Part shown: piece by piece, positions 2,769 through 12,856 of the stretch
How the letters are laid out: each line of letters begins with the position of its first letter
Position numbering within the stretch: position 1 is the stretch's first letter
Notes under the pieces: model-generated
Told to the model about the DNA's origin: nothing
Seen by the model: the letters and a program-made list of their open reading frames with translations, nothing else
Database searches by the model: none
Program-made: the position numbers and the translations under genes
From: a virus
Virus record (IMG/VR): IMGVR_UViG_3300018059_000261
Span: 1 to 23,269 of that record
Direction: 5' to 3' (one strand)
DNA length: 23,269 nt

Positions 2769-4085
2769 TTACCGCCGACTCCGTCTGCGTCGCTGTTCCT
2801 TCTCCTCTTTGTTACCCTTGCCCTTCGCGTCGCCCCTCAACTTCTCCAGCTCACGGGCGGCCTCGTCATCGTAGTCGTCACCCCGCCCACGCCCCGCTCT
2901 GGTACCACGGTCGGTATCTCGATCTCCTCGTGAATCACGGTCGCGTCCGGACTCAGCATCACCAGCACTACCACGGCCCCGATCACCATCACGATCACGC
3001 CCGCGATCGTCACTGGAACGCTCCCGATCGCGATCAGCACGCTCCGGTTCCGGGTCACGATCGCGATCACGCCCAGAACGAGGCCGCTCATCCCGACTGC
3101 GATCATCACGATCCCGATCATCACGGCCGCGATCCCGACCTGATCTCTCCGGCTCAGCATCCCGTCCACGGCGAGACTCACGCTCCGGCTCTGGATCTCG
3201 CTCACGTCCACGGCTACGGTCGTCGCGTTCACCGGTTTCTCCGCGATCGCCACGGTCCCGGTCACCGCGAGCACTGCCGCGATCACGATCATCACGAGCA
3301 CCACGATCGTCACGATCGCGACCTCGAGACTTGTCATCCTTGTCGTCCTTCTCCTCGGTATCCGCGCCACGCTCCTTGGCAATCTCAAGTGGGTCCTCCC
3401 CTTCGATGATCCGGTCCATCTCCTTCGGGTTGAAAATCCGGCGACTGACGTAGTCGTCCAGATCCAGCATGGTCTCCACAACGCCCTCGGCGACAACTGA
3501 GGAATCCCGTTCCGCGAAGATCTCATACTTCGTGTCGTTCATCTTCTTGCCGGTCCGCTTGACCCCGATGTCGTACCCTTTGTCGACCTTGAGCAGGTCC
3601 GGGTACTGCTCCGTGATCAGGGTCATGACTCCCTGGTAGATCATCGTACCGAACGACCAGAGCACCGGCTTGTCGTCATCCTCATCCCTGTCGAGAATCT
3701 GCGCCATCCACCGCGGCTGGACGACGATCTCCTCGGCGTACTTCAGATCCTTCTCCTTCTTGGACGTCTTGAGGATGTCGACGAAATCGCAGATCGGACA
3801 CTCCTCATCCTTCGCGATGCAGAGCTTCGGGCAGTACACCGGAATCTTCCCGTTGTCGCCGAAGCCCCAGTGCTGCCCGATGAACTTGAACCAAGGCTTG
3901 CTCTTGTCGAGCGATGGCAGCACCCTGAGCCAGCTCGTGCCCTCCTTCGGGCCCTTCCAGAAGTCGACCTTCCGCCCCGATCGACTCTTAGCGGCGATCA
4001 ACTCCTTCTTGTAATATTCCATCATCTTGGGATCGATCGTCCCAAGGTCTGCGTGATACGCCTCTTTGTCGCGATCACGTGCCAT
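2769..4085 (-). CDS. gp32-like ssDNA-binding protein with long Arg-Asp-rich tail
   Basis: This 438-residue protein has an N-terminal gp32-like core (about 1-245). A zinc-binding set, H72, C85, C89, C96 and C99 (CPKLC...CPIC), matches the zinc module of T4-type gp32. Aromatics and basics around SWLRVLPS and PWFKFIGQHWGF fit an OB-type ssDNA-binding surface. Residues about 247-405 are almost entirely Arg, Asp, Glu, Gly and Ser with many RD/DR dipeptides and recurring DPEPER or DAEPER blocks; the end is Lys/Glu-rich and then RRRRSRR. Usual SSB tails are short and acidic and recruit partners, so this polyampholyte tail with a basic terminus is unusual. It sits between the UvsY-like mediator and uvsX, as expected for a recombination-replication set. 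The AGGAG before the ATG is eleven bases away, slightly far. Confidence 0.83.
   Translation of the reverse strand: MARDRDKEAYHADLGTIDPKMMEYYKKELIAAKSRSGRKVDFWKGPKEGTSWLRVLPSLDKSKPWFKFIGQHWGFGDNGKIPVYCPKLCIAKDEECPICDFVDILKTSKKEKDLKYAEEIVVQPRWMAQILDRDEDDDKPVLWSFGTMIYQGVMTLITEQYPDLLKVDKGYDIGVKRTGKKMNDTKYEIFAERDSSVVAEGVVETMLDLDDYVSRRIFNPKEMDRIIEGEDPLEIAKERGADTEEKDDKDDKSRGRDRDDRGARDDRDRGSARGDRDRGDRGETGERDDRSRGRERDPEPERESRRGRDAEPERSGRDRGRDDRDRDDRSRDERPRSGRDRDRDPEPERADRDRERSSDDRGRDRDGDRGRGSAGDAESGRDRDSRGDRDTDRGTRAGRGRGDDYDDEAARELEKLRGDAKGKGNKEEKEQRRRRSRR
2780..3340 (-). repeat. Low-complexity coding repeat (CGATCA/GATCGCG-rich) encoding the SSB tail
   Basis: This is the DNA behind the SSB tail. It is built of short degenerate units in which CGATCACGATC-type strings recur (densest at about 2930-3340). 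Arg and Asp codons alternate (CGT/CGC and GAT/GAC on the coding strand), so the repeat produces RD dipeptides. The units are imperfect and mixed with GAGCCGGAGCGT-like blocks that encode the DPEPER segments. It is likely to vary in length between relatives by slippage or recombination; that is inference. Confidence 0.75.
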
Positions 4086-4092
4086 GTCGGTG

Positions 4093-4629
4093 TTATCTCC
4101 TCTCTCGTGTGCGTTGAACTACATGTGAATCCCGCTCTCGATCGATCTCTGCTGCCGCGATCTTCCCGGCCTTGCGGGCGAGATCGACATCCAACTGCCG
4201 CCGAATGTTGGTGGCCAGCGCCACAAGCATGTCCCGGCGGTGGGTCATCGCATCGCGGGCAACCTGCATCCGATCGACGACCTTATCCTGCTTCAGCTTG
4301 TCGTCTTCCAGTTCGCGGTACTTTCGATGCCGGACGACATACGCTGCTGTCTCTTTGTCGGTCGGCTTTTTCTCCCCGGCAGCCACACTGTTCTTGTGTT
4401 CGTCGACCAGGTCAGCTTCCAGGCGATCCATCTTGAGCTTCAGGACCGCCACAGCATCCTTGGCCTCCGAGTGCATAGTCGCCCAGAGCGCGAACTTCGC
4501 CGGATGCTCGGCGAGTTCGACATCGATGTTTCGCTCATCGATCACCACGTCATCGTAGAAGTTGATCTTCCAAGGTTTGCCATTCGGTGTCGTGACTGTC
4601 CACTCGGCAAACTGATCTCGCAGTTTCAT
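4093..4629 (-). CDS. UvsY-like recombination mediator (probable)
   Basis: This 178-residue, largely helical, charged protein lies directly upstream of the gp32-like gene in the transcription unit. Its pattern resembles phage proteins that accompany UvsX/gp32 pairs and are compared with T4 UvsY. It has an N-terminal IDVELAEHPAKFALW element (Ile-Asp, Pro, aromatic-x-x-Trp), a long helix ending in a basic/acidic stretch (KMDRLEADL), a PTDKETAAYV turn, and a terminal helix with VARDAMTHRRDMLVALA. UvsY loads the recombinase onto SSB-coated ssDNA. Sequence similarity is judged by eye and is weak, so the call rests on both layout and pattern. Its ATG overlaps the stop of the dUTPase-like gene by four bases. 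The C-terminus is basic (QRTRERR). Confidence 0.58.
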   Translation of the reverse strand: MKLRDQFAEWTVTTPNGKPWKINFYDDVVIDERNIDVELAEHPAKFALWATMHSEAKDAVAVLKLKMDRLEADLVDEHKNSVAAGEKKPTDKETAAYVVRHRKYRELEDDKLKQDKVVDRMQVARDAMTHRRDMLVALATNIRRQLDVDLARKAGKIAAAEIDRERDSHVVQRTRERR

Positions 4630-5054
4630 ACGTGCTCACCCCCTCCGCTCTGACTCTCCCTGAGCCGCTGCTGTTCCTGTGTCATGCGCTCCTCAACAAT
4701 GGCACTCTTCCGAATGAACATCTCTTTGAACTTACTCCGGATCTCCGGCATGTAGACGGGAATGTTCCAGATGTACTTCTGCGCATCGACGAATTCCTCG
4801 ATCGCCGCCTCCATGTCAATGGGTCGATCCAGCTTGTGCACCTTGTAGTTGGTTGCCTTCTCCAGGAATTCGATGAGCTCACCAATCGCGCTCAGCACCA
4901 TCTTGATCACCATGTCATTACGCTCGACCGGTGTCAACTCCTCAGGAACTTCTTTCCCAGGAAACTTCAGCGCAATCACACGCTCCTGAAAACCCTCCTG
5001 ATAGTCGATGTAATCATCGAGCGTCTTCAGTGCATTACCCGTCGTTGCTGTCAT
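4626..5054 (-). CDS. All-alpha NTP pyrophosphatase, probably dUTPase (dimeric dUTPase/MazG type)
   Basis: The 142-residue protein contains the ExxE...ExxD metal-binding signature of the all-alpha NTP pyrophosphatases: E59-L-I-E62 in AIGELIEFLEKATNYK, and E87-F-V-D90 in EEFVDAQKYIWNI. Members cut dUTP (or related NTPs) to the monophosphate and PPi, keeping uracil out of DNA and supplying dUMP. The start was set at 5054 because GGAGATAACG precedes this ATG at ideal spacing. The frame stays open upstream to 5126, but that would overlap the polymerase gene by 92 bases and adds an Arg/Ser-rich segment. It overlaps the polymerase end by 20 bases. Substrate is inferred from the UDG-rich neighbourhood; a general MazG-like activity is the alternative. 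Confidence 0.72.
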   Translation of the reverse strand: MTATTGNALKTLDDYIDYQEGFQERVIALKFPGKEVPEELTPVERNDMVIKMVLSAIGELIEFLEKATNYKVHKLDRPIDMEAAIEEFVDAQKYIWNIPVYMPEIRSKFKEMFIRKSAIVEERMTQEQQRLRESQSGGGEHV

Positions 5055-8000
5055 CGTTATCTCCATCTTTCTCAGATTTTTCATCGCCCTTGTTGCGCTT
5101 GATCGTATTCTCCCGGAGCTTCGCACGCTGTTTGTCTGTCAGCCCAGGCACCATCAGCTCCCACTCTGTCTCTGGGTAGCATGCCACCAAGATCCGATAT
5201 GACGGTGGGAAGATCAGCTTGGTCCAGTAGTAGTTGTGATCGTACTCACCCTTGAAATCATCGGCGTGAATCGCCTGCAGCTTCGGCTTCTGCCCGATGA
5301 CGATATAAGGGACCTTCATACCGATGTAGAACTCCCCACCCCCATCCCTGAATGCTCGGGCGATTTCAACGTGGACCTGCTTGGCCTTGTAGCTCTCGAT
5401 CGCTCGGGCAATCCCTTTTGTTATCGTGATCTGCTCAACCGGGAGTTCGCCGTTCAGGACCTTCTCACGCTCTGACATAAGAAAATCTACCAGGTGTTTC
5501 TTGTTCACCTTCTGTCTGACAATCATCTCGATCACAGTCCGCTGCATGTCTCGGGCGTACTCGATCCCATCCGACCGCATGCACTCGAGTCCCTTGACTT
5601 CAGTGAAGCTCGCCTTCTTGCCCTTGTACATTGTCATCAAGCCTGCGTAGCGCTTTTTGCGAACAAAGAACATACGGCTGAAATAGTTCTCGTACTCGAG
5701 CTCAACGAGGAATCGCGACTCTGGGATGCCAAACTTCTCGTTAAGATGCTTTTTCAGATACTCATTACAACCTTTGACGAACCCGGCCCCATCATCAGCA
5801 GGAAGTTTGATGTACATCGAGTCCGTATCACCGGCCAGTGGTTCGAGTCCCTGCAGCTTCGCGTAGTCGATCGCCTGCTTGAGAATGTACTGCCCGCCGA
5901 GCGTAACTGCCTCAGCCACCTTTGGATTGAAATAGCGACTCTCAACGTTGCCCATGTCACCGTAGAACGAGAGGCCCAACCGCTTGAAGGAGTAAGCCAG
6001 TCTGTAGTAGAGCAGGAACAGATCCGAGCCGACCTCTTGATCCTGCTGTAGCTTCTGATAAACCTTCCGCTTCTCACCCGTATCCTGGAAGATCTCCGGT
6101 ATGAATCCCTTGCGTGACGTAAGGAACTTCGTCCCTGTCGGCGCTGTAACGTAGTCACGGGGATCGAGCAGCTTGGCTTGCTCATCAGTGATATATGTCT
6201 CCGGGCTGATGTTCCAGGCGAGCATAACCGATGGATATAGACTCTTGAAGTCGACTGCGGCGACATCTTCGAAAATCCCAATCTTAGGATCGAGCACGTA
6301 CGCCCCTTCGTACATACTCCCTTCTACGCCATACTCACGCTTCTTGAAATCGACCTTGCCGCCTTCCTGCATAATCCGCACTTTCTTAGTCGGAAAGTGC
6401 ATCCCCACCTGCTTACCTCGCTTGAGCAGCAGGGAATCAATCTTGGTCGTAATGTGATAGTCCCGCGCAAAGCAGTTTCCGATGCGTGAGAAGACCTGGT
6501 CAATCTTCGCAAACCCGGTAAACTTCTCCAGCTCGACAAGCAGGTGAACATCGAATCTGTTGTATTCCTCTAGGATGTCTGGCGCCTGCCGGTACAGCTC
6601 GAGGAATCGAACGACGTTGAGCCCACGTTCCTTGCATTTCAGCCGCCAGTCAAGCTTCCCGGTCTTGAGCTGATGTGACGCGATCGCCTGGAGGGAGAAG
6701 CTAGTATTTGCCGTCGCCCCGCGCTGGAAGTACCGCTTCCAGGTCCTGAGCAGATCGATCGTATGGACGTAATCCCACCGAGCCTGTACGCCATGCATCC
6801 GCATCCGCTGCCGGAGAATCGGGAAGTCAAAGTTGTTTCCGTTCCAGGCGTACATGATGTCGATCTCCGCCATGCGGCGGGCAAACTTGATCAACATCAT
6901 TTTCTCGCTCCGGTCATTCTCCTTCTCGAGGAGGAGGAATCCTTTCTCCGGCTCACGCGTCTTGTCCCGCCAGTGGCACTCCCAGGCGATGGAGAGGATT
7001 CGACGCTCGGCCAGATCACGGCGGTCGATCAACGGCTTCGTGTCGTCGGTCTCAATGTCCACGTACATCTCGTCGTATGACGACTGAATCTTGATGTCGA
7101 AGTCGGTAAGGAATCGTCGTGATGGCGTGAGATCCGCCTCGTAGTGCTTGACCCCCTCCTTCTCGATATCATCAAGGAGATCTCTGAGCAGCTGATCCTT
7201 GGGGTACTTCTTCAGAATGTTGTCGTCCCACAGCGTGAGATAGCTCTCGAGAAGATGTTCGCGCAAGGCTGCCGTCCGAATGACATGACGGACTGAAAAG
7301 ACCTTGGTCCATTCCGGATTCACTTCATCCGGTTCGAGACGATGCACCGCTTTCTGTCCCATCCAGTAGGACCAGAACTTCGTCCCGAGTCTGATAGCAT
7401 CCTTGGTCCTAAGATAGAAGTACCAATCAAAATCGATTCCAGACCGCACCACTTCTTCGCTCTTATGCCCGTTCTTGTTCGAGGAGACTAGCACGACGTT
7501 CGGCCCATCCGACCACGCCGTGCTGTACTCTTGATTGTCATTCCAGGGATTCCGCGAGAACACGCCTGACTTGGACTCCAAGGCGGCGATGACGCTCTTG
7601 TCTTCCTGATGATGCTCGACCTTGGCTGTATCAATGTACGTCCCGGTCACGCTCGCGCCGATCAGGACCAGTGCACGCTGGAGTTGGTCCATGACCTTCC
7701 GGCGCGTGGTCATGTCCTGCGGGTTGTAGAGGAAATGTGCCGGATGGTAGAGCGGGATGATAATGCGACCATCCTTCTCAATCTCACGCCCAAGCAACTC
7801 CTTCATCGGGGCGTTGAGATCCAAGAGTGCCCGCACCGCGTAGAGACCCCAGGCGAGAATGACACGTGGGTTGACCAGCTCGATTTCCCGCTTCAACCAC
7901 TTGTTGACACAGATATCGACCGACTCTTTGGACGGCTTCCCGATGTTGCCCTTCTCATCGTACCCAGGAAAGCACTTGACCGCATTGGTGACGTACATCT

Positions 8001-8196
8001 GCGCCCGCGAGAATCCGGCCTCTTCCAACATCTGATCGAACAGGACGCCAGCCTTCCCGAGCATCGGACGGCCAGCTTTATCCTCGTTCAGCCCAGGCGC
8101 TTCAGCCACAGACATGATCCGCGCCTTTGGTGGTCCCTCTCCGAACACGACCTGCTTTGCAGTCTTATGGCAGTCGCACGCTGTACAACGACTCAT
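5035..8196 (-). CDS. Uracil-DNA glycosylase :: family B DNA polymerase fusion
   Basis: This 1053-residue replicative polymerase carries an extra N-terminal UDG domain. Residues 1-185 have a family-4-like pattern: cysteines C4, C7, C75 and C96 (iron-sulfur candidates), AEAPGLNEDKAGRPMLGKAG (31-50) and a YHPAHFLY motif (H151). A polymerase N-terminal region follows, then the 3'-5' exonuclease: Exo I DIET (D380/E382), Exo II NNFD (D457), Exo III YNRFD (D549). The palm has motif A DFKSLYPS (D649), motif B FKRLGLSFYG (K738), motif C GDTDS (D790/D792) and a later RKKRY. In motif B the normally conserved Asn of KxxxNSxYG is Leu742. The ATG at 8196 was chosen because it makes an ATGA overlap with the upstream UDG gene; the frame is open to 8337, but those 47 residues lie inside that gene. 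Core domains are certain. Confidence 0.96.
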   Translation of the reverse strand: MSRCTACDCHKTAKQVVFGEGPPKARIMSVAEAPGLNEDKAGRPMLGKAGVLFDQMLEEAGFSRAQMYVTNAVKCFPGYDEKGNIGKPSKESVDICVNKWLKREIELVNPRVILAWGLYAVRALLDLNAPMKELLGREIEKDGRIIIPLYHPAHFLYNPQDMTTRRKVMDQLQRALVLIGASVTGTYIDTAKVEHHQEDKSVIAALESKSGVFSRNPWNDNQEYSTAWSDGPNVVLVSSNKNGHKSEEVVRSGIDFDWYFYLRTKDAIRLGTKFWSYWMGQKAVHRLEPDEVNPEWTKVFSVRHVIRTAALREHLLESYLTLWDDNILKKYPKDQLLRDLLDDIEKEGVKHYEADLTPSRRFLTDFDIKIQSSYDEMYVDIETDDTKPLIDRRDLAERRILSIAWECHWRDKTREPEKGFLLLEKENDRSEKMMLIKFARRMAEIDIMYAWNGNNFDFPILRQRMRMHGVQARWDYVHTIDLLRTWKRYFQRGATANTSFSLQAIASHQLKTGKLDWRLKCKERGLNVVRFLELYRQAPDILEEYNRFDVHLLVELEKFTGFAKIDQVFSRIGNCFARDYHITTKIDSLLLKRGKQVGMHFPTKKVRIMQEGGKVDFKKREYGVEGSMYEGAYVLDPKIGIFEDVAAVDFKSLYPSVMLAWNISPETYITDEQAKLLDPRDYVTAPTGTKFLTSRKGFIPEIFQDTGEKRKVYQKLQQDQEVGSDLFLLYYRLAYSFKRLGLSFYGDMGNVESRYFNPKVAEAVTLGGQYILKQAIDYAKLQGLEPLAGDTDSMYIKLPADDGAGFVKGCNEYLKKHLNEKFGIPESRFLVELEYENYFSRMFFVRKKRYAGLMTMYKGKKASFTEVKGLECMRSDGIEYARDMQRTVIEMIVRQKVNKKHLVDFLMSEREKVLNGELPVEQITITKGIARAIESYKAKQVHVEIARAFRDGGGEFYIGMKVPYIVIGQKPKLQAIHADDFKGEYDHNYYWTKLIFPPSYRILVACYPETEWELMVPGLTDKQRAKLRENTIKRNKGDEKSEKDGDNDDSNDG

Positions 8197-8810
8197 CGCG
8201 GCACCTTGATTCCTTCTCCGGCACTGAGGCGTCTGTAGACGGCTCTGACAAACGCCCACTGATTCTCGTACGCGTAGCGTGAAATCCCATCTGGATAGAG
8301 CAGTGCCGCTGGATGATTGACGTACGTACTGATCCATCGTCTCTGCGCCTTCGTCTCATCATGCAAGCGTGAGTGATACCACTTGACGCGAAACGGTTCG
8401 ATGAGTCCGATCCGCTGCCCAGCAATGCGCCCAAGCGCGACGATCATCTTGAGATTGGGGAGACTCACCAACTCAGCCTCGAGCCAGTCCGCACAGTTCG
8501 CGATGTAATCGTCCTGCACCTTCCCTTCACATTTCATCGCGTTAGTCACGTAAAAATCATCAAGCGTGAATCCAGCGTTGATCATCGTGCTACGCAGAAT
8601 CTCGCTCCCCTTAGTCGTCTGCTCATCATCCCAAAGGTGAAGCTCAAACGGAATACGCTTAGGATTCTGCGGCACCACATTCCCTGGATTCTGCGCAAGC
8701 AATAGCATTTTCGCCTGTGGGTTCCCAATGCCCAGCCCCTTACTTGCCCGGAGCAGGCAGTGGTCGCATTTGCGAATGACCTCGTTAAGTGTAAGTGACT
8801 CTAAGCCCAT
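8193..8810 (-). CDS. Stand-alone uracil-DNA glycosylase superfamily protein
   Basis: This 205-residue protein is of the UDG superfamily and most like family 4. Four cysteines in the family-4 spacing (C15, C18, C94, C106) could hold a 4Fe-4S cluster. Motif 1 reads LLLAQNPGN (39-44), which departs from the usual GEAPG, and the second catalytic-loop motif is NHPAALLYP (H166). FYVTNAMKC and LKMIVALG match the conserved core strands. It is encoded directly before the polymerase, whose own N-terminus is a second UDG domain, so the phage has two UDG modules side by side. The AQNPG motif means the specificity may differ from simple uracil removal, or activity may be reduced. The start overlaps the kinase gene by 26 bases and its ribosome binding site is weak. 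Confidence 0.8.
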   Translation of the reverse strand: MGLESLTLNEVIRKCDHCLLRASKGLGIGNPQAKMLLLAQNPGNVVPQNPKRIPFELHLWDDEQTTKGSEILRSTMINAGFTLDDFYVTNAMKCEGKVQDDYIANCADWLEAELVSLPNLKMIVALGRIAGQRIGLIEPFRVKWYHSRLHDETKAQRRWISTYVNHPAALLYPDGISRYAYENQWAFVRAVYRRLSAGEGIKVPR

Positions 8811-9324
8811 GATGTCTCATGATCCGTTGAAAGTCAACAACCAATGCATCAATTGTCCGTGTCCCATCAAGGATGTGCGTCTGATACTCATGCGTGGAAA
8901 GTCCATGTGACCACTGCTCGTAGGCCTCATGAATCTGCACATGCCGCTCTGTGATGACGTGCATATCACCACGCTCACTCATCCGCTGCAGTGCCACAGG
9001 TTGTGGAACACGCAAGTAACACACGACAAGTCCGCCCAGCTCCCATGGCCCTCGGTACCGTGGGATCGGGCGGTTATAGACTTGAGCGTAGATCGGTCCG
9101 GTCACGACGCAGAAGCGATCGCAGATGTAAGTGCTCGCTCGATCGTACATTGATGTGAACAGGGCCAGATCACGCTGCTCAAGCTTGCTGATCTGTTCCC
9201 ATAGCTCTCGATCGAACGGACCCCAGTTCACGAATCGCATGTTGTCGAACGTGAGAAGTTGACGAAGGCGTCGATAGAGTGTCGTCTTGCCACACCCATC
9301 GGGCCCCTCTAAAGCAAAAATCAT
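8785..9324 (-). CDS. Thymidylate / deoxynucleoside monophosphate kinase-like
   Basis: This 179-residue P-loop kinase starts MIFALEGPDGCGKTT, with Walker A G7-x4-G12-K13-T14 in the EGPDGxGKTT form typical of thymidylate kinases. The DR motif appears as YICDRFCVVTGPIYAQ, and a LID-like stretch follows around RMSERGD. It would phosphorylate dTMP or another dNMP to raise dNTP supply during replication; dTMP is the best guess given the adjacent dUTPase and UDG genes. It is slightly short compared with cellular Tmk (about 205-215 residues). It begins in an ATGA overlap with the preceding small gene. A deoxynucleoside kinase is the alternative. Confidence 0.82.
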   Translation of the reverse strand: MIFALEGPDGCGKTTLYRRLRQLLTFDNMRFVNWGPFDRELWEQISKLEQRDLALFTSMYDRASTYICDRFCVVTGPIYAQVYNRPIPRYRGPWELGGLVVCYLRVPQPVALQRMSERGDMHVITERHVQIHEAYEQWSHGLSTHEYQTHILDGTRTIDALVVDFQRIMRHHGLRVTYT

Positions 9325-9717: not shown

Positions 9718-10860
9718 TCATCCTTCCAATAGATGCAACAGATCTGGTTTGATGTTCCGCGCCCAGACTTCTTGATACTCCCCAGCATTCATGTTCTGCG
9801 TCAAGTGAATGAGCTGTTCCTTCGTCGCCCGCTTGTAGAGTCCGGCATCGAAGACGCCCTGAATGAACCCGGCGATATGCATGGGATCTAGACTCCGCAG
9901 CAATCCTGGCCAGTCATTCCCGACAAGATCCGTGTACCCATCGCAATTGAATAAGATCGGGAAGGCGCCACAGGCGATGGCCTCACGAATGCTCTCTCCA
10001 CCGAACCCGTTATCACAGAGTCCGATCACGGCCTTGCTACGCCTGAGCAGTTGCGTATATGCACCCAGATTCTTGTTCGTCCCCTCCTGTACGTAGACGT
10101 TATCGATGCCCTCCAGCAACTTATTCTCTGTGAGGTACCGAGTCTGATCCGGGAAGTAGACCTTCCCCTGCCAGCCAGTCTCACGGAGCACCTTGAGCGC
10201 GGTGATGAATTCGACATGATGCGAGTAGTTGGTGCCACTCCCACGTAGAACGAAAAGCAAATCGATGTCACGGTGCACGCCCCATTTCGTCGACCATGTC
10301 GGATCTTTGAGCTGCTGGACGTTCCAGGCGAATGGCCAGAGTCTGACCCGCTCTGACCGCAGTGATTCCTTGCAAATAAATCGCTGCATCGTAGGACTCA
10401 GACAAGTCAGGAGATCCACAGCACTGTAGTTAAGATCGAACAGTGGTCGCATCCACGGCCACGCTGTCTCTGGAGAAAGGTTGTGTTGCTGCACCACCTT
10501 CATCTTCGGATAAGCACCCTTGATCGCCCAGCCGATCAACTCGTGCGAGGTGAAAAGAATATCAACATCCTTGAACAGCGTCGACCATCGATGTGGATAC
10601 CACTCGAGTCTCTGCGCCATGTTCTCCGGTGGGATCGGCGCTTCATGAACATCGAACATGTCACCTGTCCCATCCCAATCCGGAAGCGTCTGGCAATCCT
10701 TGAGCGGCGGCACCAGTAGCCGGATCTTCCAGCCCAATTCCTCGTGAATCTTGCGCGCCATAAACATGATGTGCTTGGTGGCAACACAGGAGTGCAGGAG
10801 AAATTTCCCGCTCTGCTTATCTTGTTGACTGAAGAAAGGAAGGAACGCAATGCGCGTCAT
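9718..10860 (-). CDS. GT-B fold glycosyltransferase (GT4-like)
   Basis: The 380-residue protein has the layout of a GT-B glycosyltransferase. It has an N-terminal Rossmann half (IAFLPFFSQ; VVQQHNLSPE around residue 125), a hinge and a C-terminal nucleotide-sugar half. The latter starts at DIDLLFVLRGSG and carries the donor-site motif GFGGESIREAIACGAFPILF, in which the E-x7-E spacing of GT4-type enzymes is recognisable. It lies between the sigma-like and dNMP-kinase genes, within the DNA replication block rather than among structural genes. A DNA-base glycosyltransferase (as in T4-type phages) is therefore possible, but no base hydroxymethylase is visible in the window, and modification of cell-surface or phage proteins is an alternative. 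The start overlaps the sigma-like stop by four bases (ATGA). Confidence 0.8.
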   Translation of the reverse strand: MTRIAFLPFFSQQDKQSGKFLLHSCVATKHIMFMARKIHEELGWKIRLLVPPLKDCQTLPDWDGTGDMFDVHEAPIPPENMAQRLEWYPHRWSTLFKDVDILFTSHELIGWAIKGAYPKMKVVQQHNLSPETAWPWMRPLFDLNYSAVDLLTCLSPTMQRFICKESLRSERVRLWPFAWNVQQLKDPTWSTKWGVHRDIDLLFVLRGSGTNYSHHVEFITALKVLRETGWQGKVYFPDQTRYLTENKLLEGIDNVYVQEGTNKNLGAYTQLLRRSKAVIGLCDNGFGGESIREAIACGAFPILFNCDGYTDLVGNDWPGLLRSLDPMHIAGFIQGVFDAGLYKRATKEQLIHLTQNMNAGEYQEVWARNIKPDLLHLLEG

Positions 10861-11441: not shown

Positions 11442-12399
11442 TGGATGCCTCTAGATGAAATCGCCGACGGAAGTGGTCGGCCCAGCCTGTCGCTTCGATT
11501 CGAGTGACTGGGATGTCTTCACGACGAAGATCCCCAGGATCACCATGGGACAGACGGCAGATGGTGATCGGAACTTGATAATCACGGAGGTCATGCGCGA
11601 TCTCCTGCGCATCATCGATGGCGTCAGGATCCAACCAGACTTCGATCGCTTCGAACTTCCCGGTCTCCAGCAAGCGGTGCTGTGCATCATGCACCTGTTT
11701 GCCGAACAATGATGTCGCTTCATCACCAAGCGCGATGGCATCGAACACACCCTCGGTGATCTTCAGAGTCTTGGCCATCTTCGCCTGATCCCAGTTGAAG
11801 AGGAGTCTAGAACTGTTCTCCACGACTTCATCGCCCGCCGGATTCATGTACCGCTTCCCCGCCCCCATGAAAAGACGGGCCATGAAGTAGACGATCTCTT
11901 TCTTCCGTACCACTGGAATGATGATGCGGCGCGCGTAACGACCACCTGCACAGAACCCAATCCTGTACATGAGGAAATCCGCGTCAGTGAGCCCACGCTC
12001 CCTGAGGTATTTCACCGCCCGCATCCCCAGGACGTAGTCGTCGAGATCACCTACCGGATAGATCGCTTCATATTCCTCAGGGAGCACCGTTGCCCTGGGC
12101 TGACGAATCTGCTGCTCGTAGTGTTCCTCATAGGACGTGGTCGAGTACTGAGCCCAGCGCCCGTTCTGTAAGATCTCCCAGGCCTCAGCTTCTGAGATCC
12201 CACGGTGATCGCGGAGGAAATCCACAATGCGGGCACCCTTACCAGCTCCACACCTGAAGCAGAAGAATCTGTACTTCTTCACGTTGATGTAGAGCTTCCC
12301 ACGCTTGCCACACCAGATACAGTCTACGGCTCGCTCATCCCCAGACTTGTTGATCCGAGGAAATGACTCGAATACATAGCGCTCCAGATCAAACGCCAT
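11344..12399 (-). CDS. DnaG-type DNA primase (zinc ribbon + TOPRIM)
   Basis: With the start at 12399 the protein has 351 residues, shorter than bacterial DnaG. The N-terminal zinc ribbon has C27-x2-C30 and C47-x2-C50 (CIWCG...FFCFRCG). The catalytic core follows, with the TOPRIM segment LKITEGVFDAIAL (Glu) and WLDPDA (the DxD pair). GDPGDLRRED matches the typical primase segment after TOPRIM. It lays RNA primers for the polymerase alongside the DnaB-like helicase. I chose 12399 because it starts directly before FDLERYVFESF and overlaps the nucleotidase stop by only 11 bases; the frame is open to 12495. The last 30 or so residues (from about HLEASNEQ) are encoded inside the sigma-like gene and have a Gly/Arg/Ser-rich, shadow-like composition, so a frameshifted or shorter natural end is possible. 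Confidence 0.88.
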   Translation of the reverse strand: MAFDLERYVFESFPRINKSGDERAVDCIWCGKRGKLYINVKKYRFFCFRCGAGKGARIVDFLRDHRGISEAEAWEILQNGRWAQYSTTSYEEHYEQQIRQPRATVLPEEYEAIYPVGDLDDYVLGMRAVKYLRERGLTDADFLMYRIGFCAGGRYARRIIIPVVRKKEIVYFMARLFMGAGKRYMNPAGDEVVENSSRLLFNWDQAKMAKTLKITEGVFDAIALGDEATSLFGKQVHDAQHRLLETGKFEAIEVWLDPDAIDDAQEIAHDLRDYQVPITICRLSHGDPGDLRREDIPVTRIEATGWADHFRRRFHLEASNEQAGSNPRETTGRDRGDGPSLRASELGRPRP

Positions 12400-12856
12400 A
12401 GGACCGCAACTCATCGAGGGATCGCTGAGCCGACGTATGGGTGATGAAACGACCACCAGCTTGCTCCCAAAGATCCTTGTACTTCTCCCAGTCATCGATT
12501 AGAATGTCGCGGGGCTTACAGTACTTCGCCTTATCACGACTGAAACATGTAATCACTTGCGTACCAGGGAATTGATCCGCGCACCACGCCTTCTTGTGAT
12601 CTGCCGCCCACGGCATGCTGCTCGGTACGCCAGTGAGAATGATGGGCTTTGGTTCGAAGAACAAGACCCCATCCCAGAGTAGCGACGCATCAGCCATTCG
12701 CGGAAGCGTCAAGTAAAAATAATGTTCTTTCGCGATGGTCTGCCAGAACCACTCTGAACCATCTTCACGTTCGGCTTGTCGCGGATGCTTACCGAACAAA
12801 AGTGTTGCCCGAGCATCGAAGTCGGCGAGCACACCATCCAAGTCGACGTAGATCAT
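12389..12856 (-). CDS. HAD-family 5'(3')-deoxyribonucleotidase-like
   Basis: This 155-residue HAD hydrolase starts MIYVDLDGVLADFDA, with the nucleophile pair D5-x-D7 and the DGVLADF form typical of 5'-nucleotidases. Motif II is ILTGVPSS (Thr). A Lys follows before the last acidic motif, DILIDDWEKYKDLWEQAGG, which closely matches 5'(3')-deoxyribonucleotidases and related phage enzymes. It would dephosphorylate a deoxynucleoside monophosphate; dUMP/dTMP would fit the uracil-control genes nearby, though this is inferred. It starts three bases after the helicase stop and overlaps the primase start. Confidence 0.82.
   Translation of the reverse strand: MIYVDLDGVLADFDARATLLFGKHPRQAEREDGSEWFWQTIAKEHYFYLTLPRMADASLLWDGVLFFEPKPIILTGVPSSMPWAADHKKAWCADQFPGTQVITCFSRDKAKYCKPRDILIDDWEKYKDLWEQAGGRFITHTSAQRSLDELRSYGV

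Follow-up and report, generated by a model that had tools for sequence, protein, structure and literature searches.

A UDG domain on the N-terminus of a phage family B DNA polymerase and a second, diverged UDG gene alongside it

Phage replicative polymerases that carry an N-terminal UDG-superfamily domain are already known from family A: the fusion has been published for PaBG gp205 (PMC7412058), and the polymerase of Thermus phage phiLo (PDB 9qhs) and gp31 of Bacillus phage SPO1 are built in the same way, with the UDG upstream of the exonuclease and polymerase domains. For the glycosylase itself, TthUDGa of family 4 provides a reference, with mutational data that cover E41, G42, E47, F54, N80, N89 and H155 (PMC5387724). 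Here we describe a locus of the same general layout in a 23,269-nucleotide stretch of viral DNA (IMG/VR record IMGVR_UViG_3300018059_000261; hereafter the window), in which the UDG domain is joined to a family B polymerase and a second UDG gene lies directly upstream.

Domain layout of the fusion and its close relative

The fusion gene lies on the minus strand (5035..8196) and encodes a protein of 1053 aa from an ATG at 8196. A sequence-only reading of the window had placed a UDG on the N-terminus of a family B polymerase, and profile searches confirmed this: PF03167 matched residues 18-167 (E 3.7e-31, 108.5 bits, cut-off 24.3), TIGR00758 (UDG family 4) exceeded its cut-off of 125.3 with 130.8 bits on the fused domain, and PF00136 (DNA_pol_B) matched residues 583-974 (E 3.5e-49), alongside PolB exonuclease-type matches. 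The UDG domain, supported by both profile and PDB matches, occupies residues 1-180 (7657..8196, minus strand), most of which were modeled by AlphaFold2 with pLDDT above 90. It is followed by a flexible linker at residues ~181-222 (7531..7656, minus strand; pLDDT below 50 over 182-222), the PolB N-terminal and 3'-5' exonuclease domains (6517..7530, minus strand), with the exonuclease motif DIETD at 380-384, and the polymerase domain (5092..6516, minus strand), with DFKSLYPS including D649, KRLGLSFYG, and GDTDS at 789-793. The PF00136 match, the catalytic Asp motifs and the PolB exonuclease motif all assign the polymerase part to family B; its top PDB match was 9 degrees N PolB (E 1e-46), and Foldseek on the polymerase model returned 9 degrees N and KOD-type PolB. 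In the AlphaFold2 model of the whole fusion, the UDG and Pol domains were confident, residues 182-222 were disordered, and the exonuclease/NTD region was modeled poorly because the alignment there was thin. PolB relatives without the fusion start at about residue 222 of the 1053-aa protein, indicating that the UDG was added ahead of a complete PolB. A longer open reading frame reaching 8337 is a mechanical extension only, and residue numbering throughout runs from the ATG at 8196.

The stop codon of the upstream gene, which we call UDG1, and the start codon of the polymerase overlap as ATGA (8193..8196, minus strand), and translational coupling of the two genes through this overlap is likely. 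Among the matches listed, the only close relative in IMG/VR was a 97-kb phage contig (L003, IMGVR_UViG_3300037424_000553), in which the two genes are arranged in identical order and overlap in the same way. This second contig rules out an assembly chimera or chance as the origin of the UDG-PolB arrangement. Identity between the window and L003 was 89% for the polymerase, 78% for UDG1 and 95% for the MazG-like gene that follows the polymerase, and the linker, at 76%, was the lowest among the segments compared. With dS at ~1, the fused UDG had a dN/dS of 0.115, UDG1 one of 0.167 and the Pol domain one of 0.043, values which indicate that purifying selection maintains both UDGs.

Active site of the fused domain and its proposed function

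The top PDB match of the fused domain was TthUDGa (1ui0, E 3.9e-35). The motifs named in the sequence-only reading proved exact in the numbering from the ATG at 8196: C4, C7, C75 and C96, AEAPG at 31-35, and HPA at 151-153. The four cysteines align with the Fe-S cysteines of family 4, and the TthUDGa pocket residues E41, E47, N80 and H155 correspond to E32, E38, N71 and H151. The domain had been called a complete-looking family-4-type UDG, a description that holds for the four pocket residues and the cysteines and fails at the uracil-stacking F54, where family 4 has an aromatic residue and where the fused domain has M45 in the window and Leu in L003. Phe occupies this position in 92 of 103 aligned UDGs, with a replacement found in few relatives, and in TthUDGa the F54A substitution lowers activity ~17-fold (PMC5387724). 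The fused domain further differs from TthUDGa in having a polymerase attached, in A31 at the place of G40, and in a longer loop at the N89 segment, with about five extra residues.

Our favored reading, in which we place evenly balanced confidence and which draws on sequence comparison, is that the 1053-aa protein is a phage replicative PolB with a tethered family-4-type UDG that would couple uracil excision to the replisome. The UDG would swing on its ~40-aa linker and, at the fork or immediately after it, take uracil out of the viral DNA, the uracil stemming from dUTP misincorporation and from deamination of cytosine exposed in the single-stranded template, such that base excision repair would be coupled physically to replication. 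The need would be greatest in a phage whose dCTP deaminase supplies a dUTP/dUMP pool. In favor of excision are the retained pocket residues and four cysteines, the dN/dS of 0.115, the occurrence of the fusion on three unrelated polymerase families, the thymidylate/dUMP genes found near fusions, and the dCTP deaminase of L003 and PaBG; against it stand the Met/Leu in place of the stacking Phe in both PolB fusions and the longer loop in the N89 region.

The absence of the uracil-stacking Phe also fits the main rival to excision, that the UDG fold chiefly gives the polymerase an added DNA-binding part, for structure or processivity, while excision is a side activity or has been lost. Motif 1 is degenerate in the UDG-PolA fusions of SPO1, Lysinibacillus, Pseudomonas and Serratia phages, where the SPO1 group and others keep a domain with QENPF, ADNPT or GDNPN, and in SPO1 the cysteines have degenerated as well, leaving the domain without them. 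Since the UDG domain persists despite such degenerate motifs, it can be kept for a non-catalytic reason, and there is a precedent in the vaccinia D4 UDG, which is reported to serve in the poxvirus polymerase holoenzyme (PMC10253040, PMC5682278). We nevertheless regard a primarily structural role as unlikely for the window, as the fusions to PolB and PolC, and most of those to PolA, retain the Fe-S cysteines along with the catalytic residues E, N and H, which a mere clamp would not need.

The Met/Leu at the Phe54 position could also slow catalysis, as would suit a domain that, on binding a template uracil, makes the polymerase pause and does not cut, in the manner of the archaeal PolB read-ahead pocket. 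Archaeal PolBs detect template uracil via their N-terminal domain (PMC7544198), and a sensor would avoid the abasic sites that would result from excision ahead of synthesis. We nonetheless consider such a sensor improbable: the residues that give family 4 its strong glycosylase activity are otherwise retained, and the Q53 and H109 features of UdgX-type tight or covalent binding are absent. The fused domain scored 136.6 bits with TIGR03914, under the cut-off of 189.95; its longer loop does align at the R-loop position of MsmUdgX, and a joint clade of the fused UDG and UdgX was not rejected (AU p 0.53). At the place aligned with His109, however, the window has Gly and L003 has Ala, and motif 1 reads AEAPG, not GEQPG, leaving no Gln53. 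With both residues absent and the profile score below its cut-off, we do not assign the fused UDG to UdgX.

The second glycosylase gene and its surroundings

UDG1 (8193..8810, minus strand) encodes a standalone 205-aa Fe-S UDG-superfamily protein. The sequence-only reading had described a second UDG with a changed motif 1 ahead of the polymerase and had suggested a PF03167 search of both proteins; the AQNPG motif was confirmed, and UDG1, like the fused domain, matched PF03167 above the cut-off of 24.3 (E 2.2e-12, 47.7 bits). With TIGR00758 it reached 43.3 bits against the cut-off of 125.3, placing it outside the family 4 profile. Its motif 1 departs from GE[AG]PG in having QN in place of EG, and E47 has no equivalent; the four cysteines, the Phe, the Asn (in TN) and HPA are retained. 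The predicted structure had a pTM of 0.80, and its top fold match was again the family 4 enzyme TthUDGa (1ui0). The difference in character that had been read between the two UDGs is thus borne out, with the fused domain keeping E, the E47 equivalent, N and H, and UDG1 having Q and no E47. In TthUDGa, E41Q causes a ~900-fold loss of activity and the E41Q-G42D double mutant stays within ~5-fold (PMC5387724). As the QN of UDG1 resembles the QD of family 1, and as the four cysteines, N, H and Phe are all kept, UDG1 may be altered in activity and is probably not dead. In our proposed scheme it would be a divergent second UDG whose translation keeps pace with that of the polymerase, and its QN motif suggests a changed base specificity or weak uracil binding instead of robust uracil glycosylase activity.

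Whether the pair arose by duplication, as had been proposed, is neither supported nor excluded by the sequence comparisons. A recent tandem duplication with split roles would account for two adjacent genes that both encode Fe-S UDGs, and a joint clade of UDG1 and the fused UDG was neither recovered nor rejected in an AU test on 36 sequences (p 0.38). Against this, the two share only 27-29% identity, UDG1 ranks 102nd-103rd, near the bottom, among the compared UDGs when the fused UDG is the query, and the top matches of UDG1 are standalone phage UDGs. The free tree, moreover, places the fused pair from the window and L003 beside a standalone UDG (support 96/79). By similarity, UDG1 does not come out as sister to the fused domain, and the trees do not separate the alternatives. 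We consider a recent duplication improbable.

Several neighboring genes, all on the minus strand, relate to nucleotide metabolism. Just after the polymerase is a MazG/all-alpha NTP pyrophosphohydrolase-like gene (4626..5126), the true start of which is probably inside the open reading frame; its match to phrog_173 (NTP pyrophosphohydrolase) was weak (E 1.4e-5), it had no Pfam or NCBIfam match, and the dUTPase-like label given to it earlier is plausible only. Just before UDG1 is a deoxynucleoside/thymidylate-kinase-like gene (8785..9324; PF01712 E 1.1e-6, phrog_761 E 7.6e-18), and farther along are a possible but weak GT-B/GT4-type glycosyltransferase (9718..10860; PF13439 E 4.8e-5, under its cut-off) and an NT5C-like deoxyribonucleotidase (12389..12856). 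The L003 contig encodes, in regions outside the window, a dCTP deaminase (PF22769 E 9e-21), as does PaBG, and a TS-family protein that is closest to CMP 5-hydroxymethylase (E 7e-26, versus 2e-13 for thymidylate synthases) and that in the alignment has an Asp at the place of Asn177 in thymidylate synthase. The deaminase and the hydroxymethylase-like enzyme therefore provide a plausible source of uracil. Thymidylate/dUMP-producing genes were found near 18 of 44 UDG-Pol fusion loci, compared with 2/33 standalone UDGs (Fisher p 0.0005) and 20/150 PolB loci without a fused UDG (p 0.00015), in a small sample whose loci are not all independent and which has no control of PolA without UDG. PADLOC gave no match that would indicate a defence role.

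These surroundings bear on a further possibility, that UDG1 is a glycosylase of changed specificity in a phage with modified cytosine, acting for instance on a modified pyrimidine or on what deamination makes of it, and leaving plain uracil to the fused UDG. The closeness of the L003 TS-family protein to CMP 5-hydroxymethylase, its Asp, and the weak glycosyltransferase-like gene in the same gene cluster are in line with such a division of labor, as are the conserved cysteines, N, H and Phe of UDG1 and its dN/dS of 0.167. There is also a precedent in Brig1, a UDG-superfamily enzyme that excises alpha-glucosyl-hmC (PMC11078745). Excision of its own modified base would, however, harm the phage, modified cytosine in the phage DNA is only putative, and the large loss seen with E41Q alone in TthUDGa speaks against it, though the double mutant tempers this point. 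We therefore hold this specificity to be possible and somewhat doubtful.

Distribution of UDG-polymerase fusions and comparison with known systems

Among 80 sampled IMG/VR UDG loci, 41 were UDG-PolA fusions, 33 were standalone UDGs, three were truncated at contig ends, and three were UDG-PolC fusions, of which two (L159 and L171) are contig-truncated and were counted through their kinship to the third, L167. The UDG-PolC architecture was confirmed by Pfam in L167 and in L271 (59% identity over 1351 aligned columns), and an identical copy is present in L195, from another metagenome; the identical copy and the 59%-identical homologue rule out an assembly chimera. UDG-PolA fusions were also present in reference phages, namely SPO1, Lysinibacillus LysYB1, Serbin, Lebethron, phiLo, Mel-JY34 and the Manatee Spring phages. 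The UDG-PolB fusion is rare and, among the matches listed, occurred only in the window and L003, with none in 150 related PolB loci. A separate UDG-like gene stands next to PolB in two loci (L028 and L243), and in L243 it lies immediately before the PolB open reading frame and overlaps it, an arrangement that may resemble a pre-fusion state. When genome contigs were scanned with an alignment of the polymerase, the one match was short and weak, in the Lachnospiraceae contig L022 (29% identity over 68 residues of the exonuclease region), without a UDG. The sequence-only reading had called for a search for the same fusion in related phages: for PolB, it is borne by one close relative only, and more broadly the UDG is common on PolA and present on PolC. 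In the open-licence literature, we found no report of a UDG on a family B or C polymerase.

That an N-terminal UDG is found on family A, family B and family C replicases alike suggests selection for co-location, not chance fusion, and the family C cases point to convergence. Compared at the sequence level, these fusions suggest that linking uracil surveillance with replication is a recurrent and beneficial strategy. More broadly, and tentatively, tethering of Fe-S UDGs may have arisen separately on phage PolA, PolB and PolC as a general answer to uracil from phage pyrimidine metabolism, here paired with a translationally coupled AQNPG glycosylase of new specificity. Since the tether is present on three polymerase families that are unrelated, what looked like a curiosity becomes open to comparative testing, with each family set beside the others for the state of its catalytic site, its linker and its nucleotide-pool genes. 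The tether also raises the question of how a polymerase escapes stalling at abasic sites made by its own UDG domain, and such proteins may be of use in biotechnology as natural single-chain uracil-proofreading polymerases.

Set against known systems, the polymerase of the window has the exonuclease and polymerase fold and the catalytic motifs in common with archaeal-type PolBs (9 degrees N, KOD, Tgo), which lack a UDG and share only ~25% identity with it. The phage polymerases PaBG gp205, phiLo and SPO1 gp31 match it in the placement of the UDG but belong to family A, and no second UDG gene was seen alongside them, unlike in the window. The SPO1 domain, with QENPF as its motif 1, lacks the cysteines that the fused domain of the window keeps. 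A UDG tether on a family A phage polymerase was thus already known; what the window adds is the family B case and the coupled second UDG.

UDG domains on family C and family A polymerases

Among the loci from the metagenome surveys, a UDG joined to a family C polymerase (DNA polymerase III alpha) was found at L167:4956-8978 (+), L271:3956-7981 (+) and L195, with truncated copies at L159 and L171. The domain order from the N-terminus is UDG, PHP, Pol3_alpha and finger domains, and the fusions fall into two lineages with 59% identity between them.

In UDG-PolA fusions from SPO1 and from phages of Lysinibacillus, Pseudomonas and Serratia (L008:3941-5779; L018:3995-6670; L010:3986-6502; L017; L020), motif 1 is degenerate (QENPF, ADNPT, GDNPN, GDAPN) while the UDG domain is still present; in SPO1 its cysteines are also gone. 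The domain may be retained for a non-catalytic reason. Another UDG-PolA fusion, of 1405 aa (L176:4983-9200), is split by an intein that contains a LAGLIDADG domain.

Unfused family B polymerases

Separate UDG-like genes lie beside unfused family B polymerases at L243:3986-4681 and L028:7849-8529, the latter copy being strongly diverged (motifs GTQPV and TPD). The 1280-aa PolB-like ORF at L207:4740-8582 has matched blocks ~315 residues apart, possibly separated by an inserted element.

Other genes of the related phage and the window

The 97-kb contig of the related phage L003 (also L192) encodes a TS-family protein (L192:8621-9562, -) whose top PDB match is a CMP 5-hydroxymethylase. In the place of Asn177 of thymidylate synthase, this protein has Asp. 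It is a possible dCMP hydroxymethylase, a candidate hinting at modified cytosine in this phage. A U32-peptidase-family protein gene (phrog_5757; L192:12479-13552, -) adjoins the FEN-like nuclease gene.

The window encodes a gp32-like SSB (2769-4085, -) whose C-terminal tail is very long (~190 residues) and consists mainly of Arg/Asp/Gly/Glu repeats, in contrast to T4 gp32, whose tail is short and acidic.
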